A DNA stretch of 64,000 bases. Source: Fundidesulfovibrio soli. GTDB lineage: Bacteria > Desulfobacterota > Desulfovibrionia > Desulfovibrionales > Desulfovibrionaceae. Position 1 is the stretch's first letter. Each line of letters opens with the position of its first letter. A program made the translations under genes and the position numbers. Under the pieces are notes generated by a model, which was not told the DNA's origin, searched no databases, and worked only from the letters and a program-made list of their open reading frames with translations. Below, piece by piece: positions 40,840-62,660 of the stretch. The DNA lies in the NCBI RefSeq assembly GCF_022808695.1, contig NZ_JAKZKW010000015.1, positions 31,177 through 95,176 on the forward strand, read 5' to 3'.

Positions 40840-41263
40840 GGACGGACTCCTGGGGCGGTGGCCCCGATCGATGTGCGCCACGACAAGAGGGCGCGGTTCC
40901 CGTCCATGGAAACCGAGTGAGGCGAACAAAAGATAGGCTGGAGTCGGAAGTTTGGCAAGAGGTGGGAAAAATCTTCATCTCAAGCGAAATCCGTGCCATG
41001 GTGGTCTCGAAACCTGCGGGGGCGGGCCCTTCTTCCGCGCCGTCATCTCCGCCCGATGCGGGTTTGCTGCGTCCGTAACAATACGATCGTTGCGTTGGCG
41101 TCCGTAACTGCCCGTCAGCCCTGATCTCCGGTGGGCTTCGCCGGGAATGTCACGCATTCTCCGGTGGGGCGTCACAGAAACGTCACATACTGTTTTTAGC
41201 TTCCGCAGGTCGCCGGAGAGCTTCTCCGGCTGTCAACCATCCACCCTCAGGGAGGCTCATCCA
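40840..41263. promoter_or_regulatory. pstS upstream region
   Basis: About 420 bp with no gene; it separates divergent transcripts and carries the Pho box of pstS. No other element recognised. Confidence 0.5.
41149..41187 (+). promoter_or_regulatory. Pho box upstream of pstS
   Basis: Two identical 7-mers CGTCACA (41170-41176 and 41181-41187) separated by GAAA: the 7-4-7, 11-bp direct-repeat layout bound by PhoB. A third GTCAC at 41149 is exactly 22 bp further upstream. Ends 76 bp before pstS. Confidence 0.85.
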
Positions 41264-42073
41264 ATGAAAAAAATTTCCGCATTCCTCTTCGCCATGCTGC
41301 TCATGGCGGGTGTCGCCCAGGCACAGTCCATCCGCATCGACGGCTCCACCACCGTGCTGCCCGCCATGCAGAAGATCGTCGAGGCCTACATGAAGGCCAA
41401 CCCCGGCGTGAACATCACCGTCTCCGGCGGCGGCTCCGGCAACGGCATCAAGGCCATCATCGACGGCACCACCGACATCGCCATGTCCTCGCGCGAGATG
41501 AAGCCCAAGGAATTCGACGCCGCCAAGGAAAAAGGCCGCGTGGTCAAGCCGGTGGAGATCGCCATGGACGCCCTGGCCCCCATCGTCAACCCGGCCAACC
41601 CCGTCACCAGCCTGACCGCCGAGCAACTCCAGGGCATCTACGCCGGCAAGATCAAGAATTGGAAGGAAGTGGGCGGCGACGACAAGGAGATCGTGGTCAT
41701 CTCCCGCGATACCTCCTCCGGCACCTACGAAGCCTGGCAGGAGCTGATCATGAAGGACCAGAAGGTCACCCCCGCCGCCCTGCTGCAGGCCTCCTCCGGC
41801 GCGGTGCTCCAGGTGGTGAGCAAGAACAAGTACGCCATCGCCTACGACGGCTACGCCTACGTGAACAACACCGTGAAGGCCCTGAAGGTCAACGGCGTGC
41901 AGGGCGGCGAGAAGTCCGTGGCCGACAAGAGCTACCCGGTCTCCCGCCCGCTGTTCATCATCCTGCCCGAATCCGCCTCCGCCGACGCGAAGAAGTTCGT
42001 GGACTTCATCATGGACCCGGCCAAGGGCCAGAAGATCATCGCCGAAGTGGGCTACTTCCCGGTCAAGAAATAG
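41264..42073 (+). CDS. pstS: Phosphate ABC transporter binding protein PstS
   Basis: A 269-residue periplasmic phosphate-binding protein. Signal peptide 1-20; phosphate contacts in IDGSTTVLPAM, SGGGSGNGIKAIIDGTTDIAMSSR (in parts SGGGSGNG and DGTTDIAMSSR) and SRDTSSGTYEAWQE are typical. The start at 41264 is chosen over an upstream frame because it begins the signal peptide. Followed by a strong hairpin that would make it more abundant than the permeases. Confidence 0.95.
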   Translation: MKKISAFLFAMLLMAGVAQAQSIRIDGSTTVLPAMQKIVEAYMKANPGVNITVSGGGSGNGIKAIIDGTTDIAMSSREMKPKEFDAAKEKGRVVKPVEIAMDALAPIVNPANPVTSLTAEQLQGIYAGKIKNWKEVGGDDKEIVVISRDTSSGTYEAWQELIMKDQKVTPAALLQASSGAVLQVVSKNKYAIAYDGYAYVNNTVKALKVNGVQGGEKSVADKSYPVSRPLFIILPESASADAKKFVDFIMDPAKGQKIIAEVGYFPVKK

Positions 42074-42133: not shown

Positions 42134-43027
42134 GTGGCAATCAACAGAAAGCTCAAGGACGACCTGATCCGGTACTTCTTCCTGGTCACGGCCATGATCT
42201 CCATCATCGCCCTGGGGCTGATCATGGTCTACCTCTTCCTGGAAGGCCTGCCGCTCTTCAAGACCGTCACCGTGAGCGACTTCCTGTTCGGGCGGTTCTG
42301 GTACCCCACGGCCGACCCGGGCGAATTCGGCATCATGCCGCTCATCGTGGCCTCTCTGGCCGTCACCCTGCTGTCGTCCTGCATCGCCATCCCGCTCGGG
42401 GTGATGACGGCGGTGTACCTGGCGGAGATCGCCGGGCCGAAGACGCGCAGCATGTTCAAGCCCATGGTGGAGCTCCTGGCCGCGCTGCCCTCGGTGGTCA
42501 TCGGCTTCTTCGGCATGGTCGTGGTCGCGCCCTTCCTGCAGGACAATTTCGACCTGGCCACCGGCCTGAACATGTTCAACGCCGCCCTGATGCTGGCCTT
42601 CATGTCCGTGCCGACGATCTGCTCCGTCTCGGAGGACGCCATCTACGCCGTGCCCCGCGAACTCAAGGAGGCCTCCCTGGCCCTGGGCGCCACCCACTGG
42701 GAGACCATCCGCCGGGTCGTGCTGCCCGCCTCGCTCTCGGGCGTGTCCACGGCCATCATCCTGGGCATGTCGCGCGCCATCGGCGAGACCATGGTCGTGC
42801 TCATGGTGGCGGGCGGCGCGGCCATGGTGCCCACATCCATATTTTCGGCCATCAGGCCCATGCCTTCCTCCATAGCCGCCGAAATGGCGGAGGCCCCCTT
42901 CCGCTCGGACCACTACCACGCCCTGTTCGCCATCGGCGTGGTGCTGTTCCTGTTCACGCTCGTCTTCAACATCATCGCCAGCCACATAGCCGAGAAGCAC
43001 AAGCAGGTCGGCGCGGCGACACTCTAA
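42134..43027 (+). CDS. pstC: Phosphate ABC transporter permease PstC
   Basis: A 297-residue inner-membrane permease with six segments. The ATPase-docking EAA-like loop is ELKEASLALGATHWETIRRVVLP in parts (EASLALGAT, WETIRRVVLP), followed by SRAIGETMVVLMVAGG. GTG start. PstB must be supplied from elsewhere. Confidence 0.92.
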   Translation: MAINRKLKDDLIRYFFLVTAMISIIALGLIMVYLFLEGLPLFKTVTVSDFLFGRFWYPTADPGEFGIMPLIVASLAVTLLSSCIAIPLGVMTAVYLAEIAGPKTRSMFKPMVELLAALPSVVIGFFGMVVVAPFLQDNFDLATGLNMFNAALMLAFMSVPTICSVSEDAIYAVPRELKEASLALGATHWETIRRVVLPASLSGVSTAIILGMSRAIGETMVVLMVAGGAAMVPTSIFSAIRPMPSSIAAEMAEAPFRSDHYHALFAIGVVLFLFTLVFNIIASHIAEKHKQVGAATL

Positions 43028-49677: not shown

Positions 49678-50631
49678 ATGCTGGACCTGCACCTTTTGCG
49701 CACCTTCCTGGCCGTGGCCGCCGGGCTCTCCTTCCGGCAGGCGGCGGCGCGGCTGCATTACGCCCCCTCCACGGTCACGGCGCAGATCAAGGCCCTGGAG
49801 GAGCAGGCGGGCCAGCCCCTGTTCGTGCGCTCTGGCCGGACGGTGCTGCTCACGGAGCACGGGGCGCGCCTGGTGCCCCAGGCCCGCAGGCTGCTGGACG
49901 TGGAGCGCGAGGCCCGGGCCGCGCTCACCGGCGGGGAGGGCGAGCCGGGGGAGCTGGCCGTGCGCGTGTCCGAGAGCCTGGGCATCCGGCTGATGCCGCG
50001 CGTGCTGCCCATGCTGCGCGTCCGCTTCCCGCATGTGCGGGTCTCCCTCTCCACGCGGTCGCTGCACGGGCTGGCGCGCGACGTGCTCCACGGGGTCACG
50101 GAACTGGCCGTGATCCTCTCGGAGCCGTTCGCGGCGGAGGGTGTGGAAGTGGAGGCGCTGCGCAGGGTGCCGCTGGTGGTCATCGCCGCGCCCGGGACGG
50201 CCCCCGGCGGGGGTGGGAAGGTCTGCGCGCGGGACCTGGACGGGGTGCCCCTGGTGCTCACGCCCCACGTCTGGAGCGCGCGCGGGCTGCTGGACCGATC
50301 CCTGGCCAGGGCCCACGCCAGCACGCCGGGCGTGGTGGAGTGCGCCAGCGTGGAGATGGTCAAGCGCTGCGTGGCAGCCGGGCTGGGCATCTCCCTGGTG
50401 CCGGGGTTCACGGTGGAGCGCGAGGCCGCTCGTGGGGAGCTGGAAGTTCTGGGCTGGGCCGGGGAGGAGCTTTCCGTGCCCGTGCTGCTGGTCAAGGCCG
50501 GGGGGAGGAGACTGTCCGGGGCGGCGGCGGCCTTCGAGGAGGCCGTGCGCCGCTGCGTGGGGGACGACCCCGGTTTGGGCGGGGTTGTGCCGGCTGCCGG
50601 CCCGCCATGCGGCGGGCCTGCGCCCGGCTAG
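49678..50631 (+). CDS. LysR family transcriptional regulator
   Basis: A 317-residue regulator: winged helix-turn-helix at 1-60 (FRQAAARLHYAPSTVTAQIKALEE in parts) and a periplasmic-binding-type effector domain (about 90-295). It is divergent from the CMD-TauE/SafE operon, the usual arrangement for a LysR and its target; the effector may be a sulfur or organic anion. The C terminus has a Gly/Pro-rich extension. Confidence 0.9.
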   Translation: MLDLHLLRTFLAVAAGLSFRQAAARLHYAPSTVTAQIKALEEQAGQPLFVRSGRTVLLTEHGARLVPQARRLLDVEREARAALTGGEGEPGELAVRVSESLGIRLMPRVLPMLRVRFPHVRVSLSTRSLHGLARDVLHGVTELAVILSEPFAAEGVEVEALRRVPLVVIAAPGTAPGGGGKVCARDLDGVPLVLTPHVWSARGLLDRSLARAHASTPGVVECASVEMVKRCVAAGLGISLVPGFTVEREAARGELEVLGWAGEELSVPVLLVKAGGRRLSGAAAAFEEAVRRCVGDDPGLGGVVPAAGPPCGGPAPG

Positions 50632-52109
50632 CCTGCCATGCGGCGGGGTTCGGCGGCGCGCTGGTCCTCGCGGGTGGGGATCATGCCCACGCGGTCGCGC
50701 CCGGCGTTCTTGGCGGCGTAGAGGGCCTGGTCCGCCTGGCTGAGCAGGCTCGCGGGGGTGGCGGCCTGTCCGGGCACGAACGAGGCCAGCCCGATGGAGA
50801 CGGTCACGGGTATGACGCGCCCGGCGTAGCGCGTGGCGGCGTCCGCCACGCGGCGGCGCAGCCTCTCGGCCAGCATCCAGGCGTGGGCCTGCCCGGTGTG
50901 CGGCAGGATGACGGCGAACTCCTCGCCGCCGAAGCGGGCCACGAAATCGGTCTCGCGCAGGCCGGTCTCCAGGGCCTGGGCGGCGTTGCGCAGCACGGCG
51001 TCACCGGCCAGGTGGCCGTGGGTGTCGTTGACCTGCTTGAAGTGGTCCAGGTCCGCCATCATGAGCACGAAGCCTTCCTTGTGGCGCATGTGGCGCTTGA
51101 GCTCGTGGTCGAGGCGGGCGTCAAAGCTCCGGCGGTTGAAGAGGCCGGTGAGCCCGTCGCGGTCCGCCCTCTGCTTGAAGCGCAGGAAGTCCAGCACGTT
51201 GCGCAGCCAGGGCGCGAGCTGGTGCACGGCCTGGCGGGCCAGCTCCTGCTCGTTGCGGTCCAGGTCGCGCTCCAGAAGGACGGAGACGCAGCCGAAGGGC
51301 TTCTCACCGTTGTGCAGGGGCACCAGCAGCGCCAGGCCGGGTTCGGTGCGGGCTGCCGGATTCCCGCCGGGAAATTCATGGACGCTGTACGCGCGCGAGG
51401 GCAGCCCGCCGATGCGGGAGGCCAGGTCCTGCAGGTAGTCCAGCCGGGTTGCCTTGGCCGCGTCGGGCACCTCCGCGGGCAGGAACATGTGCATCTCGGG
51501 GTCGCCGTCCCAGAATACGCCCAGCACCTCAGTGACGGGGAAGAGCCGGGCCAGGCCGTCGCTCAGCGCGGCCAGCACCTCGGGCATCTCCAGGCTGGAG
51601 ATCGCCTTGGAGAGCAGACCCTGGCGGAAGGCCAGCATGGAGTTCTCGTGGGCCATCTGGTCGCGCTCGCGCTGGGCGTCGGCCAGCAGGGCGGACATCT
51701 CGTCGAAGAGCTGCGCGGCCTGGCGGGCGTTCTCCAGCGCGGAGACGATGCGCGCCTTGGCCATGGGCGGCTTGAGGCAGGCCACGAAGCCTTGGGCCAG
51801 CACCTCCTCGCGCGAGGGCGGGGGCGAGTCCCCGGCCACCAGCACCTTGCGGGCCCCCGCCATCCAGGAGGGCGGGGCGTGGCGCAGGGAGCGCCAGAGG
51901 TCAAGGTCCACGAACACGGCCAGGGGCGCGGCGCGGTCGAAGTCGGCCTGGCTCGGCAGGTCGCGGGCCTCGAAGCGCTGCAGCGGTTCGCTCTCTCCGA
52001 CAGCCAGGCGGATCTTCCGGGCCGGCTGGCCGGAGACCCCCAACAGCCAGACCGGACGGGTCCGCTTGCCGGTGGCGCGCTTGCGCGTGGTGCGTGGTGC
52101 GGTGCTCAT
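50628..52109 (-). CDS. Diguanylate cyclase with receiver-like and GAF-like N terminus
   Basis: A 493-residue protein: a degenerate receiver-like domain (about 20-125, VFVDLDLW without a full acidic pocket), a coiled coil (about 125-170), a GAF-like domain (about 175-310) and a GGDEF domain (about 325-480). The active site FGGEEFAVILP is intact with inhibitory RETD five residues before it. Its stop overlaps that of the LysR gene. It is divergent from the GAK operon. Confidence 0.88.
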   Translation of the reverse strand: MSTAPRTTRKRATGKRTRPVWLLGVSGQPARKIRLAVGESEPLQRFEARDLPSQADFDRAAPLAVFVDLDLWRSLRHAPPSWMAGARKVLVAGDSPPPSREEVLAQGFVACLKPPMAKARIVSALENARQAAQLFDEMSALLADAQRERDQMAHENSMLAFRQGLLSKAISSLEMPEVLAALSDGLARLFPVTEVLGVFWDGDPEMHMFLPAEVPDAAKATRLDYLQDLASRIGGLPSRAYSVHEFPGGNPAARTEPGLALLVPLHNGEKPFGCVSVLLERDLDRNEQELARQAVHQLAPWLRNVLDFLRFKQRADRDGLTGLFNRRSFDARLDHELKRHMRHKEGFVLMMADLDHFKQVNDTHGHLAGDAVLRNAAQALETGLRETDFVARFGGEEFAVILPHTGQAHAWMLAERLRRRVADAATRYAGRVIPVTVSIGLASFVPGQAATPASLLSQADQALYAAKNAGRDRVGMIPTREDQRAAEPRRMAG

Positions 52110-52269
52110 GCCTGCGGGCAAGCAAGTTTGGTGCCGGAAAATCTTGCCGGTGGGCCGCGCGAGGGGCGGCGGCGGTAACATGTTCGTCATGATGGCGGGG
52201 TAGAGAATAGTTGGACATCCGTTCGCCGGGTGCTAGAAAGTGAGCCTGGAACATCGGGAGGATCAACTC

Positions 52270-52857
52270 ATGAGCATGACAGGGAAACACAAGGTCGAAT
52301 TCGCGATCCCCGAGAACGGGCTGGCCGACTGGCTGCGCACCTTGGCCGACCAGATCGAGGCGGGCGCCCTTGGCGCTGGCGAGGCTCCGGTGAGCCTGGA
52401 GGGTTACCGCGGGCTCAAGATCGCCGTGAAGCCTTCCGTGGAGGGCGAGCTGCGCGCCAAACTCTCCATCAAGTTCCCCAAGCCTGCGCGGAGCGCGGCG
52501 GAGTTGCTGGAGCCGGGCATCCTGGAACCGGGAATCATCGAGGGCGAGGAAGACGAGGAAGAGGGCGAAATGCCCAAGTACAAGTCGCTCAAGAAGCACA
52601 TGAAATCCACCTTCAAGGCCATCGGCACAGCGCTCGCGGCCGGGCAGACGCCCCCCGCCGCGGAATTCGCCAGCTTCATCGCCGATTCCAAGCTGATGGT
52701 GGCCTACCCGGGCAAGGGCGACGAGTTCTATCCCGAATACCTCGAGAAGACGCAGGCCCTTGAAGCGGCCTTCGCCGCGGGCGACCTGGAGGCAATGAAG
52801 GCCATGCACCAGGAGCTTGCCCGGCTCAAGCGGGAGTGCCACTCCCGCCACGCGTGA
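52270..52857 (+). CDS. GAK system XXXCH-domain protein
   Basis: A 195-residue acidic protein. N-terminal part (about 7-77) looks like an amphi-Trp-type domain (GLKIAVKPSVEGELRAKL then SIKFPKP); an acidic linker (EGEEDEEEGE) follows; the C-terminal part is helical and ends ELARLKRECHSRHA, the Cys-His ending that names the XXXCH domain (TIGR04358). No enzyme motif. It heads the GAK operon with GGGAGGA ahead of the start and could be a substrate, carrier or scaffold. Role unknown. Confidence 0.75.
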   Translation: MSMTGKHKVEFAIPENGLADWLRTLADQIEAGALGAGEAPVSLEGYRGLKIAVKPSVEGELRAKLSIKFPKPARSAAELLEPGILEPGIIEGEEDEEEGEMPKYKSLKKHMKSTFKAIGTALAAGQTPPAAEFASFIADSKLMVAYPGKGDEFYPEYLEKTQALEAAFAAGDLEAMKAMHQELARLKRECHSRHA

Positions 52858-52947
52858 GGCCCGCGCAACCCGCTTCGGCACATCACCTTTTCCGCACCGG
52901 GCGCGCCCGCTCTTGCCGCGCCCGGGGCGAAAGCATAGAGGCGTCGC

Positions 52948-54123
52948 ATGTCCACACCATCCATCGAACTGGTGAAGCCGGGCTCCCCGGCCTGCGCCAG
53001 CATTGACCTGTCCTCCATCCCCCGCGAGGTCACCGACTGGGACCTGGAGACCTACCTGGGCCTCACCTGCGCCGGGGTCACGCCCGAGCAGGCCGAGTCC
53101 ATCAGAAACCCCAGGACCCGCTATCCGCGCCAGGAATACGTGCTGGCGGTGCACTGGCACCCCGAACAGGTGCCCATGCCCATCATCAGGGAGCGCATCG
53201 CGGCCATGTTCCCCTCCAGCCGTGACGAGCTGATCATCCCCACCCAGCACAACCAGCTGCTCACCTGGGGCGACTACGCGGGCGTGGAGGTGGACTGCTA
53301 CTCCCACGGCTTCAACCGCAAGGTGCAGCTGCTCATCCACCTGCGCGCCGACAGGCTGGAGCGCGCGGGCGTGCTTTCCAACATGCTGCGCCACACCTTC
53401 AAGTACCGTTCGTCCCAGCTCTACGAATACCTCGACGCCATGTGCGAGCCCGAGTGGGCCGAGCGCCGCCAACAGGCGGCGGGCATGGCCGGCTCCGACG
53501 AGGACGTGGTGGAGTTCGTCTCCATCTACGCCCGCAGGCTCAAGGAACTCGTGATCATGAACGAGTCCCGCACGCCGGAGGACGCCTTCAAGAACAAGCT
53601 GGTGCGCAACTATTTCGACTGCCTGCGCCAGATCCACGACCCGCGCCTGGTGAACAAGGCCCAGGTGTTCGCCAAGGCCGTGAAGGAGGTCGTGAAGGAG
53701 AACTTCTCCCTGGCCTACTTCTACCGCGCCTCCGAGGTGGTGGAGGAAGCCCGCTCCATCGGCGCGGGCGTCGTCATCCCGCACCCGGAGCAGTTCTGGC
53801 CCATCCTGCTGCGCAACTACGACGTGGACGGCATCGAGGTCTGGAACCCGCAGTCGCAGCAGTACACCGAGTTCCTCATCAACGTGGTGATCGACCAGAA
53901 CAGACGCGGCTACCACAAGGACAGGCCCATGCTCATCTTCATGGGCGACGACTGCCACCTGAGCGAGAAGCTCAAGGCCCCGGACGAGCAGGACAAGGAC
54001 AAGGTCTCCCGCGAGGTGGGCCTGCAGCCCGCCTGGGACGACCTCGGCATAGCCAAGGGGCTGATCATGTCCGGCGTGAGCCGCAAGACCGTCATGGACG
54101 AATACCGCGCGCGGCTCGGCTAG
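52948..54123 (+). CDS. PHP-like metal-dependent phosphoesterase, GAK-associated
   Basis: A 391-residue protein. An HxH motif in VLAVHWHPEQVP (about 70), central HTFKYR and IPHPEQF, then GIEVWNPQSQQ and a final MGDDCHLSEK correspond to the metal-site order of PHP domains (HxH, E, H, GSDxH). A C-terminal helical tail follows (DDLGIAKGLIMSG). PHP enzymes hydrolyse phosphate esters. Ninety bp after the XXXCH gene, it probably removes a phosphate that the kinases of this locus add; that is inference. Confidence 0.65.
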   Translation: MSTPSIELVKPGSPACASIDLSSIPREVTDWDLETYLGLTCAGVTPEQAESIRNPRTRYPRQEYVLAVHWHPEQVPMPIIRERIAAMFPSSRDELIIPTQHNQLLTWGDYAGVEVDCYSHGFNRKVQLLIHLRADRLERAGVLSNMLRHTFKYRSSQLYEYLDAMCEPEWAERRQQAAGMAGSDEDVVEFVSIYARRLKELVIMNESRTPEDAFKNKLVRNYFDCLRQIHDPRLVNKAQVFAKAVKEVVKENFSLAYFYRASEVVEEARSIGAGVVIPHPEQFWPILLRNYDVDGIEVWNPQSQQYTEFLINVVIDQNRRGYHKDRPMLIFMGDDCHLSEKLKAPDEQDKDKVSREVGLQPAWDDLGIAKGLIMSGVSRKTVMDEYRARLG

Positions 54124-54194
54124 GCCGCGCGGGCACAGCAACACCCCCGGCCGGGCGGTACCGCCGCCTCCGGCTGGATCAGGAGACCATCGTC

Positions 54195-54512
54195 ATGCAG
54201 TGCGACGACAAGGACAAGGCGGAACAGCCCTCCACGGAGGGCAAGTTCACCTTCGAATCAGCCCAGGACGTCAAGACCCTGGTGGGCTACCTCCGGGCCA
54301 TCACCGACGGCTTCGAGGCGGGCTCCATGCGCTTCACCCGCAAGGACCTTGATCTGGTGCTCTCCCCCAAGGGGCTCGTCGGCTTCGCCGTGGAGGCCAA
54401 GGGCAAGGAGGGCCGCATGAAGCTCACCCTCAAGTTCCACTGGCGCGAGAACGTGGAGGCCAAGGAACCCGAGGAGGACACCCTCTCCATCACTCCCGGG
54501 GATGCGAGGTAG
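54195..54512 (+). CDS. amphi-Trp domain protein
   Basis: A 105-residue protein matching the amphi-Trp domain (TIGR04354), named for amphipathic strands and a conserved Trp: KFTFESAQDVKTLVGYLRA, GFEAGSMRF, RMKLTLKFHWREN. Its last strands (MKLTLKF) mirror AKLSIKF of the XXXCH protein, so the two share this domain. AGGAG precedes the start; the next gene starts 3 bp after its stop. Function unknown; a GAK-system marker. Confidence 0.78.
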   Translation: MQCDDKDKAEQPSTEGKFTFESAQDVKTLVGYLRAITDGFEAGSMRFTRKDLDLVLSPKGLVGFAVEAKGKEGRMKLTLKFHWRENVEAKEPEEDTLSITPGDAR

Positions 54513-54515
54513 GCG

Positions 54516-56171
54516 ATGAAGTTTTTGGACGGCGTGGAGGAGAACTTCCGCTTCATGGTCCTGGAAGTGACCAAGCAGGTGGAGAACGCCCTCAAGGTCC
54601 TCGAACACCCGGACCCCGGCCTCGTGGTCAAGATCGAGAGCCGGGACGACTACATAGACAACCTCAAGAGCGTCATCGAGAACAAGTGCTTCTCGCGCAT
54701 CCACACGGGCTTCGGGGGCGACAAGCGCGCCATCGACCAGGCCCGGGCCGTGAACATCATCACCGCCAACCTGGAGCGCATGGCCGACCACGCCGTGAAC
54801 ATCGTGATGCAGCAGCAGTACCTGCGCGATCCGGCGTTCATCAAGCGCTACGACTACCGGGCCTTCTTCGCCGAGATCATGAAGGCCCTGCACCTGGTGA
54901 TCCGGGCGCTCTACAACCAGGACATCGCCCTGGCCTTCAAGATCTGCCGTGTGGAAGTGACCCTGGACACCCTGTTCAAGACCAACTTCGACGCCATCCT
55001 GGCGGACCTGCGCAAGGGCGAATCCCCCGAGAACTGCATCACCTGCCACAACATCTTCCGCTACCTGGAGCGCATGGGGGACACCATCCTCAACATCGGC
55101 GAGGCCATCATCTTCGCCGCCGTGGGGGAGAAGTTCAAGATCCACCAGTATGAGGCCCTCAAGCAGACCCTGAACCAGCTGGGGCAGGAGGTGCCCATCT
55201 CCGACGGGGAGTTCCACTCCATCTGGGGCACGCGTTCGGGCTGCCGCATCGGCAAGGTGGAGGGGACGGGCGGCAGGCAGCGCGGCTCCCGGACCAGCGG
55301 CGTGCTCTTCAAGGAGGGCAACGCGGCCAAGCTGCGCAACGAGGCCCAGAACATCAACCGCTGGAAGTCCGTCATGCCCGGGCTGCCGCCCACCATTCAG
55401 GCCTTCCAGGAGGACGGCGACTCGGCCTCCATGCTCATGGAGTACCTGGGGGGCTGCACCTACCAGGAGGTTGTGCTCACCGGCGCGCCGGACATCGCCG
55501 CCAACGCCACCTTCATCCTGCTGCAGACCGTGCACCAGCTCTGGAGCGACACCATCAGGAAGGAGTCCGTGCGCGGCGGCTACATCAGGCAGCTGCAGAG
55601 CCGCCTGGAGGACGTCTACCGCATGCACCCCTCCTTCAAAACTCCGCGCATGGGCCTGGAGGGCATGGAGATACCCGCCTTCGAGGAGCTGCTGGCCAGC
55701 GCGGCGGAGATCGAGCAGGGGCTTGAGGCTCCGTTCTCGGTGTTCATCCACGGCGACTTCAACATCAACAACATCGTCTACAACCACGAGGAACAGCGCA
55801 TCCACTACATCGACCTGCACCGCTCCAAGGACCAGGACTACGTGCAGGACGTCTCCGTGTTCCTCATCTCCAACTTCCGGCTGCCCGTGCTGGACCTCCG
55901 CCTGCGCGAACGGCTGGACCGCGTGATGCGCGAGTTCCTGCACTTCACCCGCGCCTTCGCGGCGGAGTTCGGCGACGACACCTTCGAGGCCCGCCTGGCT
56001 CTGGGCTTGGTGCGCTCCTTCATCACCTCCAGCAGGTTCGAGTTCAACCAGCGCTTCGCCAAGGAGATGTACCACCGGGGCGTGTTCCTCATGCAGGACC
56101 TGCTGGCGCACAGCCGCAGCAGCTGCCCCTGGCGCGGCTACCGCCTGCCCGAGGCCGTGCTCATCTACTGA
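54516..56171 (+). CDS. PhoU domain fused to APH-like kinase
   Basis: A 551-residue fusion. Residues 1-230 are PhoU-like, with both three-helix repeats and their metal motif: ANLERMADHAVNIV (about 84) and RYLERMGDTILNIGEAI (about 181). Residues about 260-551 form an aminoglycoside/choline-kinase-like domain: LMEYLGGCTYQEVV hinge, catalytic FIHGDFNINNIVYN (Asp about 411) and IHYIDLHRS metal Asp (about 432). PhoU normally reports phosphate status to PstSCAB/PhoR; joined to a kinase it may switch phosphorylation of a small molecule or peptide with phosphate supply. The local pst operon lacks phoU. Confidence 0.82.
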   Translation: MKFLDGVEENFRFMVLEVTKQVENALKVLEHPDPGLVVKIESRDDYIDNLKSVIENKCFSRIHTGFGGDKRAIDQARAVNIITANLERMADHAVNIVMQQQYLRDPAFIKRYDYRAFFAEIMKALHLVIRALYNQDIALAFKICRVEVTLDTLFKTNFDAILADLRKGESPENCITCHNIFRYLERMGDTILNIGEAIIFAAVGEKFKIHQYEALKQTLNQLGQEVPISDGEFHSIWGTRSGCRIGKVEGTGGRQRGSRTSGVLFKEGNAAKLRNEAQNINRWKSVMPGLPPTIQAFQEDGDSASMLMEYLGGCTYQEVVLTGAPDIAANATFILLQTVHQLWSDTIRKESVRGGYIRQLQSRLEDVYRMHPSFKTPRMGLEGMEIPAFEELLASAAEIEQGLEAPFSVFIHGDFNINNIVYNHEEQRIHYIDLHRSKDQDYVQDVSVFLISNFRLPVLDLRLRERLDRVMREFLHFTRAFAAEFGDDTFEARLALGLVRSFITSSRFEFNQRFAKEMYHRGVFLMQDLLAHSRSSCPWRGYRLPEAVLIY

Positions 56172-56191
56172 TCGGATTTCTGGAGAGTGAC

Positions 56192-57067
56192 ATGAAAAAG
56201 ATTGGCGTTGTGGGCATTACGGACGGCTGGTCCTCCGAGGTGTTGGCGGACGCCTGCCGCAAGCACACGGGCTTCCGCCTGCTCATCGACATGGACAAGG
56301 CCGTGCTGGACCTGCAACACGGCACCGTGAGCTACAACGGGCAGGACCTGCTGGAGCTGGACGCGCTCATCGTCAAGAAGATCGCGCCGCAGTACTCCCC
56401 GGACGTGCTCGACCGGCTGGAGATGCTGCGCTTCCTGGAGCTCAAGGGCCTGCCGGTGTTCTCCAAGCCCTCCTCCATCATCAGGCTCATCGACCGCCTG
56501 AGCTGCACCGTGACCCTGCGCGCGGGCGGCCTGCCCATGCCCGCCACGGTCATCACCGAGGACGTGGGTGAGGCCCTGCACGCCGTGGAGCGCTTCGGCA
56601 AGGCCGTGTTCAAGCCGCTCTATTCCACCAAGGCCCGGGGCATGGAGGTCATCACCGCGGGCGACGGAGCCAGGGAGCGCATCGAGGCATTCAAGCAGGC
56701 GGGCAACGCGGTCATGTACCTGCAGAAGATGCTGCCGCCCCTGGAGAAGGACCTGGGCGTCACCTTCCTGGGCGGCGAGTACCTGGCCACCTACGCCCGC
56801 AAGTCGGGCGGCTCCAGTTGGAACACCACCACCAACGCCGGGGGCAAGTACGTGGCCGTGGAGCCCTCCCCCGAGATCGTGGCGCTGGCGCGGAAGGCCC
56901 AGTCCCTCTTCGACATGGCTTTCACCTGCGTGGACATCGCTGAAACGGCCGACGGCCCCATCGTGTTCGAAGTATCGGCCTTCGGCGGGTTCCGGGGCCT
57001 CCTCGACGCCTGCGGCATCGACGCCGCGGACGCTTACGTCAAATTTGTTCTGGAGCGCCTCGCATGA
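56192..57067 (+). CDS. GAK system ATP-grasp enzyme
   Basis: A 291-residue RimK-like ATP-grasp protein (TIGR04356 type). Central ATP-binding strands are VFSKPSSIIRLIDRL, AVFKPLYSTKARGMEV and VMYLQKMLPP; C-terminal IVFEVSAFGGFRGL holds the metal-binding acidic/Asn position (here ES instead of the common EVN). Such enzymes form amide or ester bonds via acyl-phosphates. Its stop overlaps the next start (ATGA). Confidence 0.85.
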   Translation: MKKIGVVGITDGWSSEVLADACRKHTGFRLLIDMDKAVLDLQHGTVSYNGQDLLELDALIVKKIAPQYSPDVLDRLEMLRFLELKGLPVFSKPSSIIRLIDRLSCTVTLRAGGLPMPATVITEDVGEALHAVERFGKAVFKPLYSTKARGMEVITAGDGARERIEAFKQAGNAVMYLQKMLPPLEKDLGVTFLGGEYLATYARKSGGSSWNTTTNAGGKYVAVEPSPEIVALARKAQSLFDMAFTCVDIAETADGPIVFEVSAFGGFRGLLDACGIDAADAYVKFVLERLA

Positions 57068-58134
57068 ACCTCACCCTGAAGGGGGTCCTTGCCCCCATCC
57101 TCGCCGCCAACCCCTGCCCGCACACCCTCGGCCTGCGTTTCGGAAGCTACCCGCTTGACGTGCGTTCCAACGAGCCCGCGCTCATCGCCTGGCTTGCGGA
57201 CTACTTCCGCGACTTCCTGCGCCAGGGCGGCCCGGCCGTCTGCGAGGTACTGGCCATAGAGGGCAAGCCCCAGAGGCTGCATCTGGACTACCAACTCAAG
57301 GAGCCCGAGCCGGGCAAGACCAAGATCAAGGAGGAATGGGCGGCCCTCGAGGGCGGACGGGCGGTGCACAAGCGCCTCACCGGCATGGCCTTCCTCTTCG
57401 GCGAGGGCCTCAACGTGGCCGTCGGTCCCTGCCTGGAGAACCCCAACCAGGTGGTCAACTTCATCAACAACCGCTTCATCGAGCACAGGCTCAACGAGGG
57501 CTGCCTGCTGGGCCACGCGGCGGGCGTGTCGCACGAGGGCGCGGGCCTGAGCCTGGCAGGGTTCTCGGGCATGGGCAAGTCAACCCTGGCCCTGCACATG
57601 ATGAATCACGGCCTGCATTTCGTCTCCAACGACCGGATCATGCTGGGCCGCAGCAACGGCGACCTCATGATGTACGGCGTGGCCAAGATGCCCCGGGTGA
57701 ACCCCGGCACCGTGCTCAACAACCCGAGCTTGGCCTCGGTGATGCCCGAATCCGACAGGGCCGCCTTCAAGGACCTGCCCCTGGAGGAGCTCTGGAGCCT
57801 GGAGCACAAGTACGACGCCTTCATCGACACCTGCTACGGCCCCGGCCGCTTCGACCTGGAAGCCCGCATGAAGGGCCTGGCCATCCTGAACTGGACGCGC
57901 AGCGGCGGCGAGCACCGCGTGGCCCCGGTGGACATCGGCCAGCGGCGCGACCTGCTCCCGGCCTTCATGAAGAGCACGGGGCTCTTCTTCGAGTCCACCG
58001 GCGACCTCACCGTGCCGGACTTCTCCGAGGATGCCTACGTGGAGATGCTCTCGGGCTGCGCCGTGCTGGAGGTGACCGGCAGGATCGACTTCGAGAAGGC
58101 GGCCGCCGAGCTGGCCGCGTTCCTGAGAGGCTGA
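57064..58134 (+). CDS. HprK-related kinase B (GAK)
   Basis: A 356-residue protein of the HprK-related kinase B type (TIGR04355). The P-loop GFSGMGKSTLALHMM (about 166) and following HFVSNDRIML resemble HPr kinase/phosphorylase (GxSGxGKS; SDD). HprK phosphorylates Ser of HPr; no ptsH is present in the window, so a different Ser/Thr or small-molecule acceptor is likely. Translationally coupled to the ATP-grasp gene. Confidence 0.85.
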   Translation: MNLTLKGVLAPILAANPCPHTLGLRFGSYPLDVRSNEPALIAWLADYFRDFLRQGGPAVCEVLAIEGKPQRLHLDYQLKEPEPGKTKIKEEWAALEGGRAVHKRLTGMAFLFGEGLNVAVGPCLENPNQVVNFINNRFIEHRLNEGCLLGHAAGVSHEGAGLSLAGFSGMGKSTLALHMMNHGLHFVSNDRIMLGRSNGDLMMYGVAKMPRVNPGTVLNNPSLASVMPESDRAAFKDLPLEELWSLEHKYDAFIDTCYGPGRFDLEARMKGLAILNWTRSGGEHRVAPVDIGQRRDLLPAFMKSTGLFFESTGDLTVPDFSEDAYVEMLSGCAVLEVTGRIDFEKAAAELAAFLRG

Positions 58135-58144
58135 ACACATAGTC

Positions 58145-58175
58145 GGCGTCCGGCCGGCAGTGCCGGCGCGACGCC
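58145..58175 (+). other. Intercistronic hairpin
   Basis: Stem GCCGGC/GCCGGC with loop AGT, extended by GGCGTC/GACGCC across a small internal loop, between the kinase and CofD-like genes. It could stabilise or attenuate the message. Confidence 0.45.
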
Positions 58176-58187
58176 CAGGGCCCGCGC

Positions 58188-59384
58188 ATGACCAAAGTAT
58201 CCGTCACACACACCGTCACACTGCCGGACCCGGTGCGCATCGCGCGCTACCTCAAGGCCCCGGAGCTGGGGCCCAAGGCGCTCTTCTTCAGCGGTGGCAC
58301 GGCCCTGCGCGACCTCTCGCGCGAGCTGGTGCGCTACACGCACAACTCCGTGCACCTGATCACGCCATTCGATTCCGGCGGCTCATCGGCCAAGCTGCGC
58401 AAGAGCTTCCACATGCTGGCCGTGGGCGACCTGCGCAACCGGCTCATGGCCCTGGCGGACCGCACCCTGCACGGCAACCCGCAGATCTACCGCCTCTTCG
58501 CCCACCGCCTTCCCAAGGACCAGTGCCAGGACGATCTCGCCGCCATGCTCGACGAGATGATCTCCGGCAAGGCCCCCCTGGTGGCCGACGTGCCGGACCC
58601 CATGCGCAAGATCATCCGCACGCACCTGGGGTTCTTCCGCCACGCCATGCGCGATCACAAGTTCGACCTGCGCGGCGCGAGCATCGGCAACCTGATCCTG
58701 GCCGGGGGCTTCTTCAACTACAACCGCCAGATCGACCCGGTGATCTACATGTTCGCCATGATGGTCAAGGCGCGCGGCACCGTGCGGCCCATCGTCAACC
58801 GGGACCTCACCCTGGCCGCCGAGCTGGCGGACGGCACCGTGCTGGCCGGGCAGCACCTGCTCACCGGCAAGGAGGAGGGGCCGATCAAGAGCCCCGTGAA
58901 GCGGGTCTACCTCTGCGCCAGCCAGAAGGACACGACCCCCGTGGAGGTGGAGATCCGCCGAAAGATCAAGGACTCCATCCGCTCCTCTGAGCTGATCTGC
59001 TACCCCATGGGCAGCTTCTATTCGAGCCTGGTGGCCAACCTGCTGCCCAGGGGCGTGGGCGATGCCGTGGCCAAGGCCCAATGCCCCAAGGTGTTCGTGC
59101 CCAACCCGGCGGGGGACCCGGAACAGCTTGGCCTGGGCCTGGGCGAGAGCGTGCGGCGGCTGGTGGAGTACCTGCGGGCCAGCTGCTCCAAGCCGCGCCC
59201 CACGAGCGCGCTGCTCAACTTCGTGATGCTCGACAAGAGGCTTGAGATCTACCAGCACCCGCTGGCGCTCAAGCAACTGGAAGGAATGGGGATAGGGATC
59301 ATCGAGTGCGACCTCGCCAGCGAGGAGAACGCCCCCCTGTTCGACGAGTGCAAGGTCATCGAGCATTTGCTGTCGCTGGCGTGA
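58188..59384 (+). CDS. GAK system CofD-like protein
   Basis: A 398-residue protein of the CofD/YvcK superfamily (TIGR04357 type). KALFFSGGTALRDLSREL (about 30) and TPFDSGGSSAKLRKSF (about 59) are the nucleotide and substrate loops seen as GGT and DDGGSSGRLR in relatives; GASIGNLILAGGFF follows. CofD transfers phospholactyl groups from a nucleotide to a deazaflavin; YvcK/GlmR binds UDP-sugars. Activity here is unknown. Last gene of the GAK run. Confidence 0.85.
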   Translation: MTKVSVTHTVTLPDPVRIARYLKAPELGPKALFFSGGTALRDLSRELVRYTHNSVHLITPFDSGGSSAKLRKSFHMLAVGDLRNRLMALADRTLHGNPQIYRLFAHRLPKDQCQDDLAAMLDEMISGKAPLVADVPDPMRKIIRTHLGFFRHAMRDHKFDLRGASIGNLILAGGFFNYNRQIDPVIYMFAMMVKARGTVRPIVNRDLTLAAELADGTVLAGQHLLTGKEEGPIKSPVKRVYLCASQKDTTPVEVEIRRKIKDSIRSSELICYPMGSFYSSLVANLLPRGVGDAVAKAQCPKVFVPNPAGDPEQLGLGLGESVRRLVEYLRASCSKPRPTSALLNFVMLDKRLEIYQHPLALKQLEGMGIGIIECDLASEENAPLFDECKVIEHLLSLA

Positions 59385-59395
59385 GGGGTGGCGCC

Positions 59396-60178
59396 TTACC
59401 TCGCCTTCAACCAACTGAGCGCCCGCCGGGCCTCCTCGGGGCGCAATCTGCTGATGGCGCTGCTCAGGGCGTCCAACTGCACCTCCACGTCGTCCAGCGG
59501 GGGGATGTCCGGCAGCTCGGGCAGGCCCAGCGCGTCCAGGTCGATGGCCTTGAAGGCCAGCTCCCTGTCCAGCTTCCTTACGTCCTCCCATCCCGTGCCG
59601 CCCACCACGGCCTCCTTCTCCACCTCGGCCGGGTCCATGGACTTGGCGAAGGAGAGCACCGCGCTGGGCGACTGACCGCTGTTCACCCCCTCCACCTCGG
59701 CGTTGATGGTCTCGGCCAGGGCCTTGAGGCTGTCCAGGTTGGGCAGGAGGATCTTGCGCGCCGGGTTGTGCGGGTCAGGTCCGTAGGCGCCGTGCAGGTA
59801 GTCCTGCGTGGCCGCGCGCACGGCCATGTAAACATAACGCACGCTCTTGGCGTAGCGCCCGGCGAAGGTCAGGGCGAAGGGCGGGGTGAAGCGCCAGGGG
59901 TCGCCCGCGGCGGCGGCCAGGGCGGGCAGGGCGCCCGCGTCCACCCCGCATTCCCGGAAGAAGCCGATAGTCAGTTCCTCGTCGACCAGCAGGCCGAACA
60001 ACGCGCCCCAGTGCTTCAATGCGCGCAGCCCCATCCCGCGCACGTCTCCCGCCAATGCGGCGAACCCTTCCAGCCGCGCCTCCACTTTGCGGCGGCGCGA
60101 AAAGAAGTTGTCCGCCATCTCGGTCATGGTCTCGGTGTAGAAATCTTCCAGGAACGACTTGTTCTTGGGCATGCGCAA
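59396..60178 (-). CDS. Conserved hypothetical protein facing GAK
   Basis: A 260-residue soluble, mostly helical protein, unrecognised. Features: basic N terminus (NFFSRRRKVEARLEG), YAKSVRYVYMAVRAATQDYL in the middle, and an acidic, Leu/Pro-rich C terminus (DLDALGLPELPDIPPLDD). It converges on the CofD-like gene with 11 bp between stops and is divergent from the EAL/GGDEF gene. ATG at 60172 is an alternative start. Confidence 0.6.
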   Translation of the reverse strand: MRMPKNKSFLEDFYTETMTEMADNFFSRRRKVEARLEGFAALAGDVRGMGLRALKHWGALFGLLVDEELTIGFFRECGVDAGALPALAAAAGDPWRFTPPFALTFAGRYAKSVRYVYMAVRAATQDYLHGAYGPDPHNPARKILLPNLDSLKALAETINAEVEGVNSGQSPSAVLSFAKSMDPAEVEKEAVVGGTGWEDVRKLDRELAFKAIDLDALGLPELPDIPPLDDVEVQLDALSSAISRLRPEEARRALSWLKAR

Positions 60179-60323: not shown

Positions 60324-62660
60324 ATGGCAGTGAGCATCATGGACTTCAAGCCGCGTCTGGAGCAGCGCTTTCTGCGCACCGGCAAGCCCGCCCCTTCCCT
60401 GGGGCGGACGCTGTCACTTTTCGACCCCCCGCATCGCGACATCCTGGAAAACATGCTCTCCCTGGGCCAACCCGTGGGCGTCATGCTCTTCGAAATCCAG
60501 GACTTCTACATGTTCTCGCGCATCTATGGGCAGGATATATCCGACGCCCTGGCCACGGCCATGGAGGCCGCGCTGGCCTCCCTTGCCAGTGAGCAGGTGC
60601 AGGGGCTGCCCCTGGTGCTCCTCGAGCGCCTGGAGGGCGACAAGCATCTGCTGGTGCTTGGGGGCGTGGGGCTGCGGCAGGAGGCCCTGACGCACACGGC
60701 CTCCATCATGCGCCTGAACCTGCGCGCCCGCCTGAAGCGGGAGGCGCTCAACCTCACCGGCCAGGACCTGGAGCTGGCGGTGGGCGTGGCCCGGCTGCAG
60801 AAGGGCTCGGGGCGCAAGGGGCTGGAGCAGGCCATGCACACGGCCCTGGCCGACGCCCACGGCATGATCCGGGGCACGGCCAACCCCACGGCGGGCGGCC
60901 TGCTGGGCGAGTTCCGCTCCGTGCTGGAGACCGGCGGGGTCCGCGCCGTGTACCAGCCCGTGGTGGACCTGCGCGGCGGGGGCATCTTCGCCTGGGAGGC
61001 CCTGGCGCGAGGCCCGGCCGGGAGCACCTTCGAGAATCCGGCCATGCTCTTCGGCTTCGCCGAGGAGAACAACCTGGTCTTCCCCCTGGAGCGGGCCTGC
61101 CGCGCCGCCGCGCTCAAGGGCTTCGGCAACCCGGGCGCGGGGCGAAAGCTCTTCCTCAACGTGCACCCGCGCACCCTGGTGGACCCCCAGTTCAACCCCG
61201 GCGAGACGGTCAGGCTGCTGGATTCCCTCGGCCTGGAGCCCCACGACGTGGTGCTCGAAATCACCGAGCGTCACTCCACCAAGGATTTCTCGCTCTTCCA
61301 CCGCACCCTGGACCACTACCGGGGCGAGGGCTACAAGGTCGCCGTGGACGACGTGGGCACCGGTTATTCCGGCCTGTGGTCCATCGCGGAGATCCGCCCG
61401 GACTTCATCAAGCTGGACATGTCCCTGGTGCGCGGCATCGACTCCAACCCGGTGAAGCGCGCCCTGATCGAGACCTTCCTGACCTTCTCCGACAAGGTGG
61501 GCTGCAAGGTGGTGGCCGAGGGTATCGAGACGCCCACCGAGCTCACCTCCCTGGTGGCCATGGGCGTGCACTACGGGCAGGGCTACTTCCTGGCCCGGCC
61601 CGGCGCGCCGCGCCCGGAGCTGAGCCCCGAGGCCGCCCGCCTGATCGTCACGGGCAACCGCCGCTCCATGGCCGAGTTCAAGTGCTCCGCGCCCATCGGC
61701 AGCCACGCGGACCAGGCCGTGCAGGTGCAGGCCACGGCCAACGTGGGCGAGGTGAAGCGCTTCCTGGAGCAGCACCCCCAGGTGAGCTCCGTGGCCGTGA
61801 TCTCCGGCAGGCGCCCGGTGGGGCTGGTGACGCGCCACCAGATGGACAGGGTGCTCTCCTCCCAGTACGGGCTGGCGCTCTACACCAACCGGCCCGTGAC
61901 CAGGATCATGGACAGCCAGCCCCTCATCGTGGACTGGAACACCCCCGTGGAGGTGGTGGCCCAGGCGGCCATGAACCGCGAGGGCTACAAGGTCTACGAC
62001 CACGTCCTGGTCACGAGGGAGGGGAAGCTCTCTGGGCTGGCCTCGGTGCAGAAGATCCTGGACGCCCTGGCCCAGGTGCAGATGGAGCTGGCCAAGGGGG
62101 CCAACCCGCTCTCGGGCCTGCCCGGCAACGTGGCCATCGAGCGGGAGATGGAGTCCAGGGTGGGCAGCGGTGAGCCGGTGAGCTTCATCTACGCCGACCT
62201 GGACAACTTCAAGGTCTACAACGACTCCTACGGCTTCAAGGCGGGCGACGAGATCATCCTCATGGCCTCGCGCATCATGGCCTGGGCCCTGCGCCGCCAT
62301 GGCTCCCCCAAGGACTTCCTGGGCCACGTGGGAGGGGACGACTTCGTGCTGGTGACCACCCCGGACAGGGCGGAGCGCATCTGCCGGGCCGTCACGCGCT
62401 GCTTCAAGCGGCTGGCCCCCTCCTGCTACGGCGACCAGGACAGGGCGGCGGGCTACATCACGGGCAAGGACCGCTCCGGCAAGGAGGGGCGCTTCGGGTT
62501 CGTGAGCGTCTCCCTGGCCATCGTGGACTGCCAGGGCAACTGCACGCTCGATTCCATCTCGCACCGCTCGGCCGAGATGAAGAAGTACGCCAAGATTCAG
62601 CCCGGCAACGTCTGGGTTCGCGACAGGCGCGGCCCCTCCGGGCTCGCCTCCCTCTGCTGA
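60324..62660 (+). CDS. GGDEF-like/EAL/CBS/GGDEF c-di-GMP protein
   Basis: A 778-residue protein. Order: degenerate GGDEF-like segment (about 45-190), EAL phosphodiesterase (about 200-435; WEALARGP, LNVHPRTL, LEITER, VDDVGTGYSGL, KLDMSLVRGI, AEGIETP), two CBS domains (about 460-580), and a C-terminal GGDEF domain (about 590-770) with VGGDDFVLV. The EAL site is complete, so hydrolysis of c-di-GMP is likely; GGDDF may make it or bind GTP. CBS domains bind adenosine nucleotides. The Pho box suggests induction on phosphate shortage. Confidence 0.9.
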   Translation: MAVSIMDFKPRLEQRFLRTGKPAPSLGRTLSLFDPPHRDILENMLSLGQPVGVMLFEIQDFYMFSRIYGQDISDALATAMEAALASLASEQVQGLPLVLLERLEGDKHLLVLGGVGLRQEALTHTASIMRLNLRARLKREALNLTGQDLELAVGVARLQKGSGRKGLEQAMHTALADAHGMIRGTANPTAGGLLGEFRSVLETGGVRAVYQPVVDLRGGGIFAWEALARGPAGSTFENPAMLFGFAEENNLVFPLERACRAAALKGFGNPGAGRKLFLNVHPRTLVDPQFNPGETVRLLDSLGLEPHDVVLEITERHSTKDFSLFHRTLDHYRGEGYKVAVDDVGTGYSGLWSIAEIRPDFIKLDMSLVRGIDSNPVKRALIETFLTFSDKVGCKVVAEGIETPTELTSLVAMGVHYGQGYFLARPGAPRPELSPEAARLIVTGNRRSMAEFKCSAPIGSHADQAVQVQATANVGEVKRFLEQHPQVSSVAVISGRRPVGLVTRHQMDRVLSSQYGLALYTNRPVTRIMDSQPLIVDWNTPVEVVAQAAMNREGYKVYDHVLVTREGKLSGLASVQKILDALAQVQMELAKGANPLSGLPGNVAIEREMESRVGSGEPVSFIYADLDNFKVYNDSYGFKAGDEIILMASRIMAWALRRHGSPKDFLGHVGGDDFVLVTTPDRAERICRAVTRCFKRLAPSCYGDQDRAAGYITGKDRSGKEGRFGFVSVSLAIVDCQGNCTLDSISHRSAEMKKYAKIQPGNVWVRDRRGPSGLASLC

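Follow-up and report, generated by a model that had tools for sequence, protein, structure and literature searches.

In Desulfovibrio vulgaris the PhoB box consists of repeated YGTNAC separated by 4 bp, and among the targets of PhoB are pst, phoU, HD/EAL genes, and the pta-ack operon (PMC3333781). The HprK-like lasso-peptide kinases phosphorylate a serine of their precursor peptides, this being the C-terminal serine in most of the cases reported, and the residue set of one of them, BsfK, is H148-G163-G166-G168-K169-S170-D186-D187 (PMC10368454). One GlmR protein is known to function as an accessory uridylyltransferase (PMC10128056). Described here is an operon from Fundidesulfovibrio soli. It lies within a 64,000-nt stretch of DNA, referred to throughout as the window, where seven genes on the + strand span positions 52270 to 59384, as had been noted in an original prediction made from the letters alone. 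Five of the products belong to the GAK set of NCBIfam. GAK is an annotation name; no paper on its function or role was found in the literature searched, and the earlier statement that no function had been described is upheld within that scope. We consider it possible, if short of probable, that the locus is a phosphate-linked protein-modification (signaling) module acting on the tails of the amphi-Trp proteins.

The genes of the operon, with spacings that range from a 4-bp overlap to gaps of ∼90 bp, are as follows.

52270-52857, + strand: XXXCH protein, 195 aa, with a degenerate amphi-Trp-like N-terminus, an acidic linker, and an XXXCH domain ending in Cys-His
52948-54123, + strand: PHP-fold phosphoesterase-like protein of a new sequence family, 391 aa
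54195-54512, + strand: amphi-Trp protein 1 (AMT1), 105 aa, TIGR04354
54483-54494, + strand: codons of the AMT1 tail motif L-S-I-T, from the tail alignment and a shuffle test
54516-56171, + strand: PhoU-APH fusion, 551 aa, the N-terminal half PhoU and the C-terminal half an aminoglycoside-phosphotransferase-like (APH) kinase
56192-57067, + strand: ATP-grasp ligase of the RimK/LysX/MptN group, TIGR04356
57064-58134, + strand: HprK-related kinase B (HprKB), TIGR04355
58188-59384, + strand: CofD-like protein of the YvcK/GlmR type, TIGR04357

The NCBIfam scores in bits (cut-offs in parentheses) are 102.4 (40) for XXXCH, TIGR04358, over residues 104-193; 62.7 (31) for amphi-Trp, TIGR04354; 451.5 (300) for TIGR04356; 505.2 (200) for TIGR04355; and 528.3 (340) for TIGR04357. 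All cut-offs are exceeded, and the original family calls for the XXXCH, amphi-Trp, ATP-grasp, HprK-related kinase B, and CofD-like proteins were thereby borne out, the last three being placed by profile in GAK families. Residues 8-69 of the XXXCH protein also match TIGR04354 weakly (17.6 bits, under the cut-off). A Cys-His is conserved at the C-terminal end of its XXXCH domain, and a signal peptide is not apparent by eye; a cytochrome b562-like assignment was set aside, the Pfam match (E-value 0.037) being under the cut-off. The CofD-like protein is 99% identical to its counterpart in F. agrisoli SG106. A sigma-70 promoter scan gave no match, and terminators were detected only at chance level.

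The conservation of the operon was assessed from 80 named loci, gathered by similarity to the CofD-like protein with flanks of up to 10 kb, and from 395 genomes of the phylum that were scanned for four of the genes. The order (XXXCH)-PHP-AMT1-PhoU-APH-ATP-grasp-HprKB-CofD-AMT2, where AMT2 is a second amphi-Trp protein, recurs with small variations in dozens of loci. It is seen in the Desulfobacterota and Zixibacteria, in metagenome-assembled genomes (MAGs) of the Nitrospirae (Nitrospirota) and Lambdaproteobacteria (SAR324), and in Geothermincola, an actinobacterial MAG, and a Coatesbacteria contig carries the set from the ATP-grasp gene onward. Across phyla, the same gene order is maintained at a protein identity of ∼50%. 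In an approximate tree of the PHP, PhoU-APH, and ATP-grasp proteins the other phyla nest among the Desulfobacterota, a pattern consistent with horizontal transfer. Besides the system's own, no gene family was found that recurs in the flanks of most loci. Within the 395 genomes, HprKB is found in 24, all 24 of which have amphi-Trp, and PHP in 28, 27 of which do so; HprKB and PHP are found together in 20 (Fisher p = 1e-23, uncorrected for kinship).

At four loci of one family (f82), PHP, amphi-Trp, and PhoU-APH are unaccompanied by the remaining genes, and neither HprKB nor a CofD-like protein was found in the genomes of these loci. The trio thus also occurs where the GAK enzymes are missing. 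PHP, amphi-Trp, and PhoU-APH are therefore the core, and what the NCBI set names under GAK is one part of the system, its add-on enzymes together with the small domains. The co-occurring set of the original prediction thus gains from the conserved order in relatives and has to be amended in that the NCBI families are incomplete, PHP and PhoU-APH belonging to the core. One genome (G118) contains PHP, PhoU-APH, and ATP-grasp, and in another (G277) the set is divided over two loci. Eleven Desulfovibrio-type genomes have the CofD-like protein, and amphi-Trp, PHP, and HprKB were not found in them. Scattering of the genes in relatives, which the prediction itself had named as damaging to it, is therefore seen in part, in G277 and in Desulfovibrio with its solitary CofD-like gene; mostly the genes are co-located. 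The Desulfonatrono-type loci are without HprKB, and a genome search for it was negative in nine of ten such genomes, several of which are small MAGs.

Three observations on gene content may be recorded here. In G277 (locus L168, 6329-13716) a peroxiredoxin-like gene and pta-ackA lie between the genes for HprKB and the CofD-like protein. A gene for a low-molecular-weight protein tyrosine phosphatase-like protein is located near the operon, and co-directional with it, in L039, L044, L049, L050, L060, L067, and L071. Finally, the gene immediately after that for the CofD-like protein is mgtE, encoding a magnesium transporter, in two distinct lineages (L055, 11303-12844; L172, 9528-10880).

Sequence searches of Pfam, NCBIfam, and the PDB with the PHP-like protein gave no matches. 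Its AlphaFold (AF2) model is confident, with a predicted local distance difference test score (pLDDT) of 91. When compared with PHP phosphoesterases (VIA-align), the model gave Z-scores of 15.9 for 3o0f, 14.9 for 9etk (RNase AM), and 14.4 for 2yb1; five PHP-type structures align at Z 14-16, with deviations of 2.6-3.8 Å over 178-247 residues, and the Foldseek match to PHP structures has an E-value of 9e-5. Invariant among the relatives are H69, H71, H101, E114, H131, H279, E297, D334, D335, and H337, of which H69, H71, H101, E114, H131, H279, D335, and H337 were assigned to PHP metal-binding motifs by eye, without superposition. As judged from the model, the protein has the PHP fold, and it is named PHP-like for that fold and placed outside the named PHP families because a profile match is absent. 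The earlier guess of a PHP phosphoesterase is accordingly supported by predicted structure and not by sequence profiles, none of which match.

The predicted fusion of PhoU with an APH kinase was confirmed, both domains and the kinase residues having been found. The Pfam E-values are 9e-26 for PhoU (PF01895), 3.8e-8 for EcKL, and 3.6e-5 for APH. K266, E276, H412-G-D414, N419, and D433 are kept in at least 95% of 41 sequences. These would correspond to the lysine, the HGDxxxxN motif, and the metal-binding aspartate of APH kinases, and by alignment the APH-type catalytic set is conserved.

The AF2 model of AMT1 (pLDDT 84) is composed of a helix and four strands. Searches of the PDB with amphi-Trp sequences gave only weak, chance-like matches, and Foldseek returned no PDB fold match, so a carrier fold cannot be named. 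Following the domain, the amphi-Trp proteins of GAK loci share the consensus hydrophobic-x-I-x-S/T; ISSxEP is frequent in AMT2, and the endings ISS, IGS, and IRS occur in several AMT1 proteins. The pattern is present in 55 of 88 GAK-locus amphi-Trp proteins as against 0 of 13 from genomes in which no CofD-like protein was found, the latter ending in forms such as PLTLG or VTIE, and since the pattern was set after the tails had been inspected these counts are descriptive. The hydrophobic part of the motif may be structural, and the Ser/Thr is its GAK-specific part. In the window, the AMT1 tail is LSITPGDAR, with T100 as the candidate modified residue. The hydrophobic-x-I tail of AMT1 is found in 28 of 29 loci with HprKB and in one of seven without it; in six of these seven the AMT1 motif is lost, and in the seventh the Ser/Thr is missing.

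Further amphi-Trp genes were encountered elsewhere. At L041 (1823-3210) four in tandem lie 3' of the CofD-like gene, three of them encoding ISS tails. Other contigs of the F. soli genome contain additional amphi-Trp-like matches (L002, L003, and L004, the last under the cut-off), and the L003 protein combines an FTISPTEP tail with a C-terminus rich in lysine. In genomes without GAK, the genes flanking amphi-Trp are mixed and indicate no function; in L121, L137, and L138 the neighbor is a P-type cation ATPase gene (checked by Pfam for L121).

The invariant residues of HprKB are H151, G166, G169, G171, K172, S173, N189, and D190, and its PDB sequence matches are HPr kinases. The ATP-grasp protein has secondary NCBIfam scores of 146.9 bits for MptN (cut-off 350) and 101 for rimK_fam (cut-off 143), families that are related and in both cases below cut-off, and its best PDB sequence matches are 3vpd and 1uc8. 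For the CofD-like protein the only NCBIfam match besides TIGR04357 is the YvcK-type TIGR01826 (111 bits). Its PDB sequence matches are exclusively YvcK/UPF0052 proteins, with canonical CofD not among them, and the Pfam family that it matches, CofD PF01933, spans both kinds. On sequence grounds it appears nearer to YvcK/GlmR than to a true CofD, in keeping with the YvcK-like nature claimed earlier; the echo of a Firmicute hprK-yvcK neighborhood that had also been suggested appears to hold at the family level only.

The link of the operon to phosphate has moderate support from four kinds of evidence, partly dependent on one another, namely, the fused PhoU domain, the neighboring genes, the upstream repeats, and the kinds of neighbors shared with D. 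vulgaris. The relevant features of the window are given below.

41170-41186, + strand: exact 11-bp-period repeat CGTCACAGAAACGTCAC with a 5-bp gap, just before pstS; positive control
41264-42073, + strand: pstS, phosphate-binding protein, TIGR02136 at 275.7 bits, open reading frame (ORF) from 41147, start taken as the ATG after the repeat, ∼10 kb upstream of the operon
42134-43027, + strand: pstC, TIGR02138 at 293 bits
43040-43909, + strand: pstA, TIGR00974 at 286 bits
52175-52191, - strand: PhoB-box-like direct repeat CATGACGAACATGTTAC, 79 bp before the XXXCH start, one mismatch to YGTNAC-N5-YGTNAC

The window thus has pstS-C-A; pstB-phoU lies on another contig (L175), after a histidine-kinase-like ORF. 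Among the relatives, pstC-pstA-pstB-phoU leads directly into XXXCH-PHP-AMT1 and the rest of the operon in L055, with mgtE thereafter, and the same position 5' of the GAK genes is occupied by pstB-phoU in L037 and pstC-pstA in L053. Genome G161 contains the run pstC-pstA-pstB-phoU-CofD-mgtE, and in Desulfovibrio the CofD-like gene is followed, in a housekeeping cluster, by a pseudouridine-synthase gene, PhoU_div, and PHO4. In these cases the CofD-like gene is near genes of Pst or Pit. Counted by distance from the block, there are six phosphate genes in 116 kb (<1 kb), five in 106 kb (1-2 kb), and none in 293 kb (4-12 kb). Adjacent phosphate genes were seen at four loci versus 0.26 expected, a rough estimate from assumed gene counts. 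Additionally, ackA adjoins three of the core trios and pta-ackA lies inside the G277 cluster. By analogy, the neighbors of GAK are of the same kinds as the PhoB targets of D. vulgaris. No GAK gene was seen in the parts consulted of a study that measured transposon-mutant fitness in D. alaskensis G20 when phosphate was limiting (PMC5193443); whether G20 carries GAK was not looked up.

The N5 form of the repeat was chosen after the pstS copy had been seen and was then tested on the GAK upstream regions and on a second set, allowing at most one mismatch to YGTNAC-N5-YGTNAC within 150 bp 5' of the first GAK gene. It is present at 7 of 37 loci in the first set, compared with 0.62 in shuffles and 0-2 for other gaps, and before one of 142 internal genes of GAK loci (p = 7e-5 versus 7/37). 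The second set yielded 4 of 25, compared with 0.35 when shuffled and 0-3 for other gaps. Triple repeats occur at some sites (L045, L191). Within the window, PhoB patterns of the E. coli type or with N4 spacing were matched no more often than by chance.

The scheme that we favor starts from the protein families, catalytic residues, PHP fold, conserved operon, phosphate-gene neighborhood, PhoB-box-like repeats, and tail motif, all of which were computed here. All enzymatic steps and substrates, and the direction in which the signal runs, we infer as follows. The PhoU half of the fusion would read phosphate or Pst status and govern its own kinase half. HprKB would phosphorylate Ser/Thr in the short C-terminal tails of AMT1 and AMT2, which would serve as substrates or adaptors, and the PHP phosphoesterase might reverse or trim the phosphorylated product. 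The RimK-type ATP-grasp enzyme would attach an amino acid to a carboxylate, probably that of a protein tail, and the YvcK/GlmR-like protein may link the output to nucleotide-sugar or envelope metabolism. Protein modification is favored because proteins are known as substrates of HprK-like as well as RimK-like enzymes, and because the tails of the small proteins could be modified. We think it doubtful that this constitutes a new class of bacterial phosphate signaling, in which a PhoU-kinase, an HprK-like kinase, a RimK-like ligase, and a PHP hydrolase would write and erase marks on amphi-Trp Ser/Thr tails for relay to a GlmR-like effector.

A number of observations weigh against the scheme. At most loci no phosphate gene is adjacent. 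The repeat is found in just 11 of 62 upstream regions overall, and at the loci of the first set it also precedes other genes, in 13 of 224 cases (p = 0.013), phosphate genes possibly among them. Its copy at 52175-52191 is weak by itself, not being significant alone, since ∼4.9 one-mismatch matches are expected by chance in the window. The two sets have genera in common and thus are not fully independent, and no phylogenetic correction was applied. The HprKB-less loci with AMT1 tail loss form one clade, so the loss of HprKB and that of the tail were perhaps a single event, and some AMT1 tails in loci with HprKB have no Ser/Thr. AMT2 retains its motif, ISS included, in loci without HprKB, from which it follows that HprKB is not the motif's only reader, and the idea that it is the sole one was dropped. 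Uabimicrobium has the CofD-like protein and a motif-bearing AMT2, and neither HprKB nor ATP-grasp was found there. With respect to the catalytic residues, the invariant N189 of HprKB replaces the first Asp of the Asp-Asp pair (D186 in BsfK), the remaining His, G..G.GKS, and D190 being kept, and Ser262 of the ATP-grasp protein presumably stands where a metal-binding Asn is expected.

The original prediction had envisaged the synthesis and turnover of a phosphorylated conjugate. In such a pathway, leading to a small conjugate of this kind or to a cofactor, the kinases would phosphorylate a metabolite, the ATP-grasp enzyme would add Glu in the manner of MptN/CofF, the CofD-like protein would transfer a nucleotidyl or phospho-acyl group, PHP would hydrolyze intermediates, and the small proteins would carry the product. 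Enzymes of the APH and CofD families do act mostly on small molecules, the second-best family of the ATP-grasp protein is the tetrahydromethanopterin:glutamate ligase MptN (147 bits), and the PHP model resembles 2yb1, which was solved with Mn, AMP, and phosphate. The CofD-like protein, however, appears nearest to YvcK/GlmR with no canonical CofD among its PDB matches, and the genes separate freely (core trio alone, CofD alone), as those of an obligate pathway would not. An enzyme that uses the product was not seen to accompany the operon, and the Ser/Thr tail motifs suggest that the small proteins are themselves modified. Such a pathway is, in our view, unlikely; the neighboring genes and the tail motifs lean more toward a modification of proteins linked to phosphate.

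Also to be considered is a GlmR-like checkpoint on envelope or nucleotide-sugar metabolism, in which the CofD-like protein would be a UDP-sugar sensor or uridylyltransferase tuned by the kinases and amphi-Trp, and phosphate would enter only through the coupling of envelope lipids and phosphate supply. This would accord with GlmR biology (PMC7525490, PMC10128056), with the YvcK-type similarity, with the placement of AMT2 directly 3' of the CofD-like gene even in Uabimicrobium, and with the solitary CofD-like gene of the Desulfovibrio housekeeping cluster. It leaves the PHP-amphi-Trp-PhoU-APH trio unexplained in genomes without the CofD-like protein, however, and a recurrent envelope gene family was not found beside most operons; we judge it quite unlikely. 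Highly improbable, and disfavored, is the notion of unrelated genes held together by linkage or horizontal transfer without a joint function. Although the nesting of non-Desulfobacterota loci in the operon tree is in its favor, the same order at ∼50% identity across phyla, the strong co-occurrence, the unconserved flanks, and the overlapping genes all argue against it.

The immediate surroundings of the operon contain other genes. A GGDEF diguanylate cyclase gene (50628-52190, - strand) is divergent from it. Downstream, a 260-aa protein with no Pfam or NCBIfam match is encoded convergently (59396-60178, - strand) and has few relatives beside other GAK loci, and an EAL-CBS-GGDEF protein follows (60324-62660, + strand). 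Related EAL/GGDEF proteins are located near the GAK genes of L083 and L166.

The proposed phosphate-linked modification module would place an orphan operon in a candidate physiological context, that of phosphate, with the amphi-Trp tails as a concrete candidate for the substrate site, and bacterial phosphate control could thereby gain an arm based on kinases. In addition, the PHP fold is supported for a family that profiles miss, and the GAK set is enlarged by PHP and PhoU-APH as core members, a combination for which no characterized system was found. All five families of the NCBIfam set, TIGR04354-TIGR04358, are represented above cut-off in this one operon, but the set omits the PHP-like and PhoU-APH proteins, a core that is able to stand without HprKB and CofD. 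The predicted fold and, it appears, the HxH and D/H motifs of the PHP-like protein are those of the PHP phosphoesterases RNase AM/YciV, BAD_1165, and 2yb1, from which it differs in its lack of detectable profile similarity and in a long helical stretch at residues ∼141-251. HprKB resembles HPr kinase/phosphorylase and the lasso kinases ThcoK, SyanK, and BsfK as a P-loop kinase with H...G..G.GKS...D, known members of which use protein or peptide Ser; it has Asn-Asp in place of Asp-Asp and its own long N-terminal region, and the operon contains no HPr, Crh, or lasso precursor. The ATP-grasp protein matches over most of its length the RimK/LysX/MptN ligases, known members of which attach amino acids either to cofactors or to the C-termini of proteins, whereas it has a conserved EVSAFGGF and Ser at the expected metal Asn. 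The CofD-like protein matches the YvcK/GlmR structures 2o2z and 2hzb over two long stretches, but D-S-G-G-S-S replaces their D-D-G-G-S-S and it has amphi-Trp, HprKB, and ATP-grasp as partners in place of YvcJ/GlmS. Finally, the locus shares with Pst-PhoU-PhoB control the two PhoU repeats of the fusion and, in some relatives, pst/phoU neighbors and PhoB-box-like repeats, whereas here PhoU is fused to an APH-type kinase and the ordinary pstB-phoU pair lies elsewhere in the genome.

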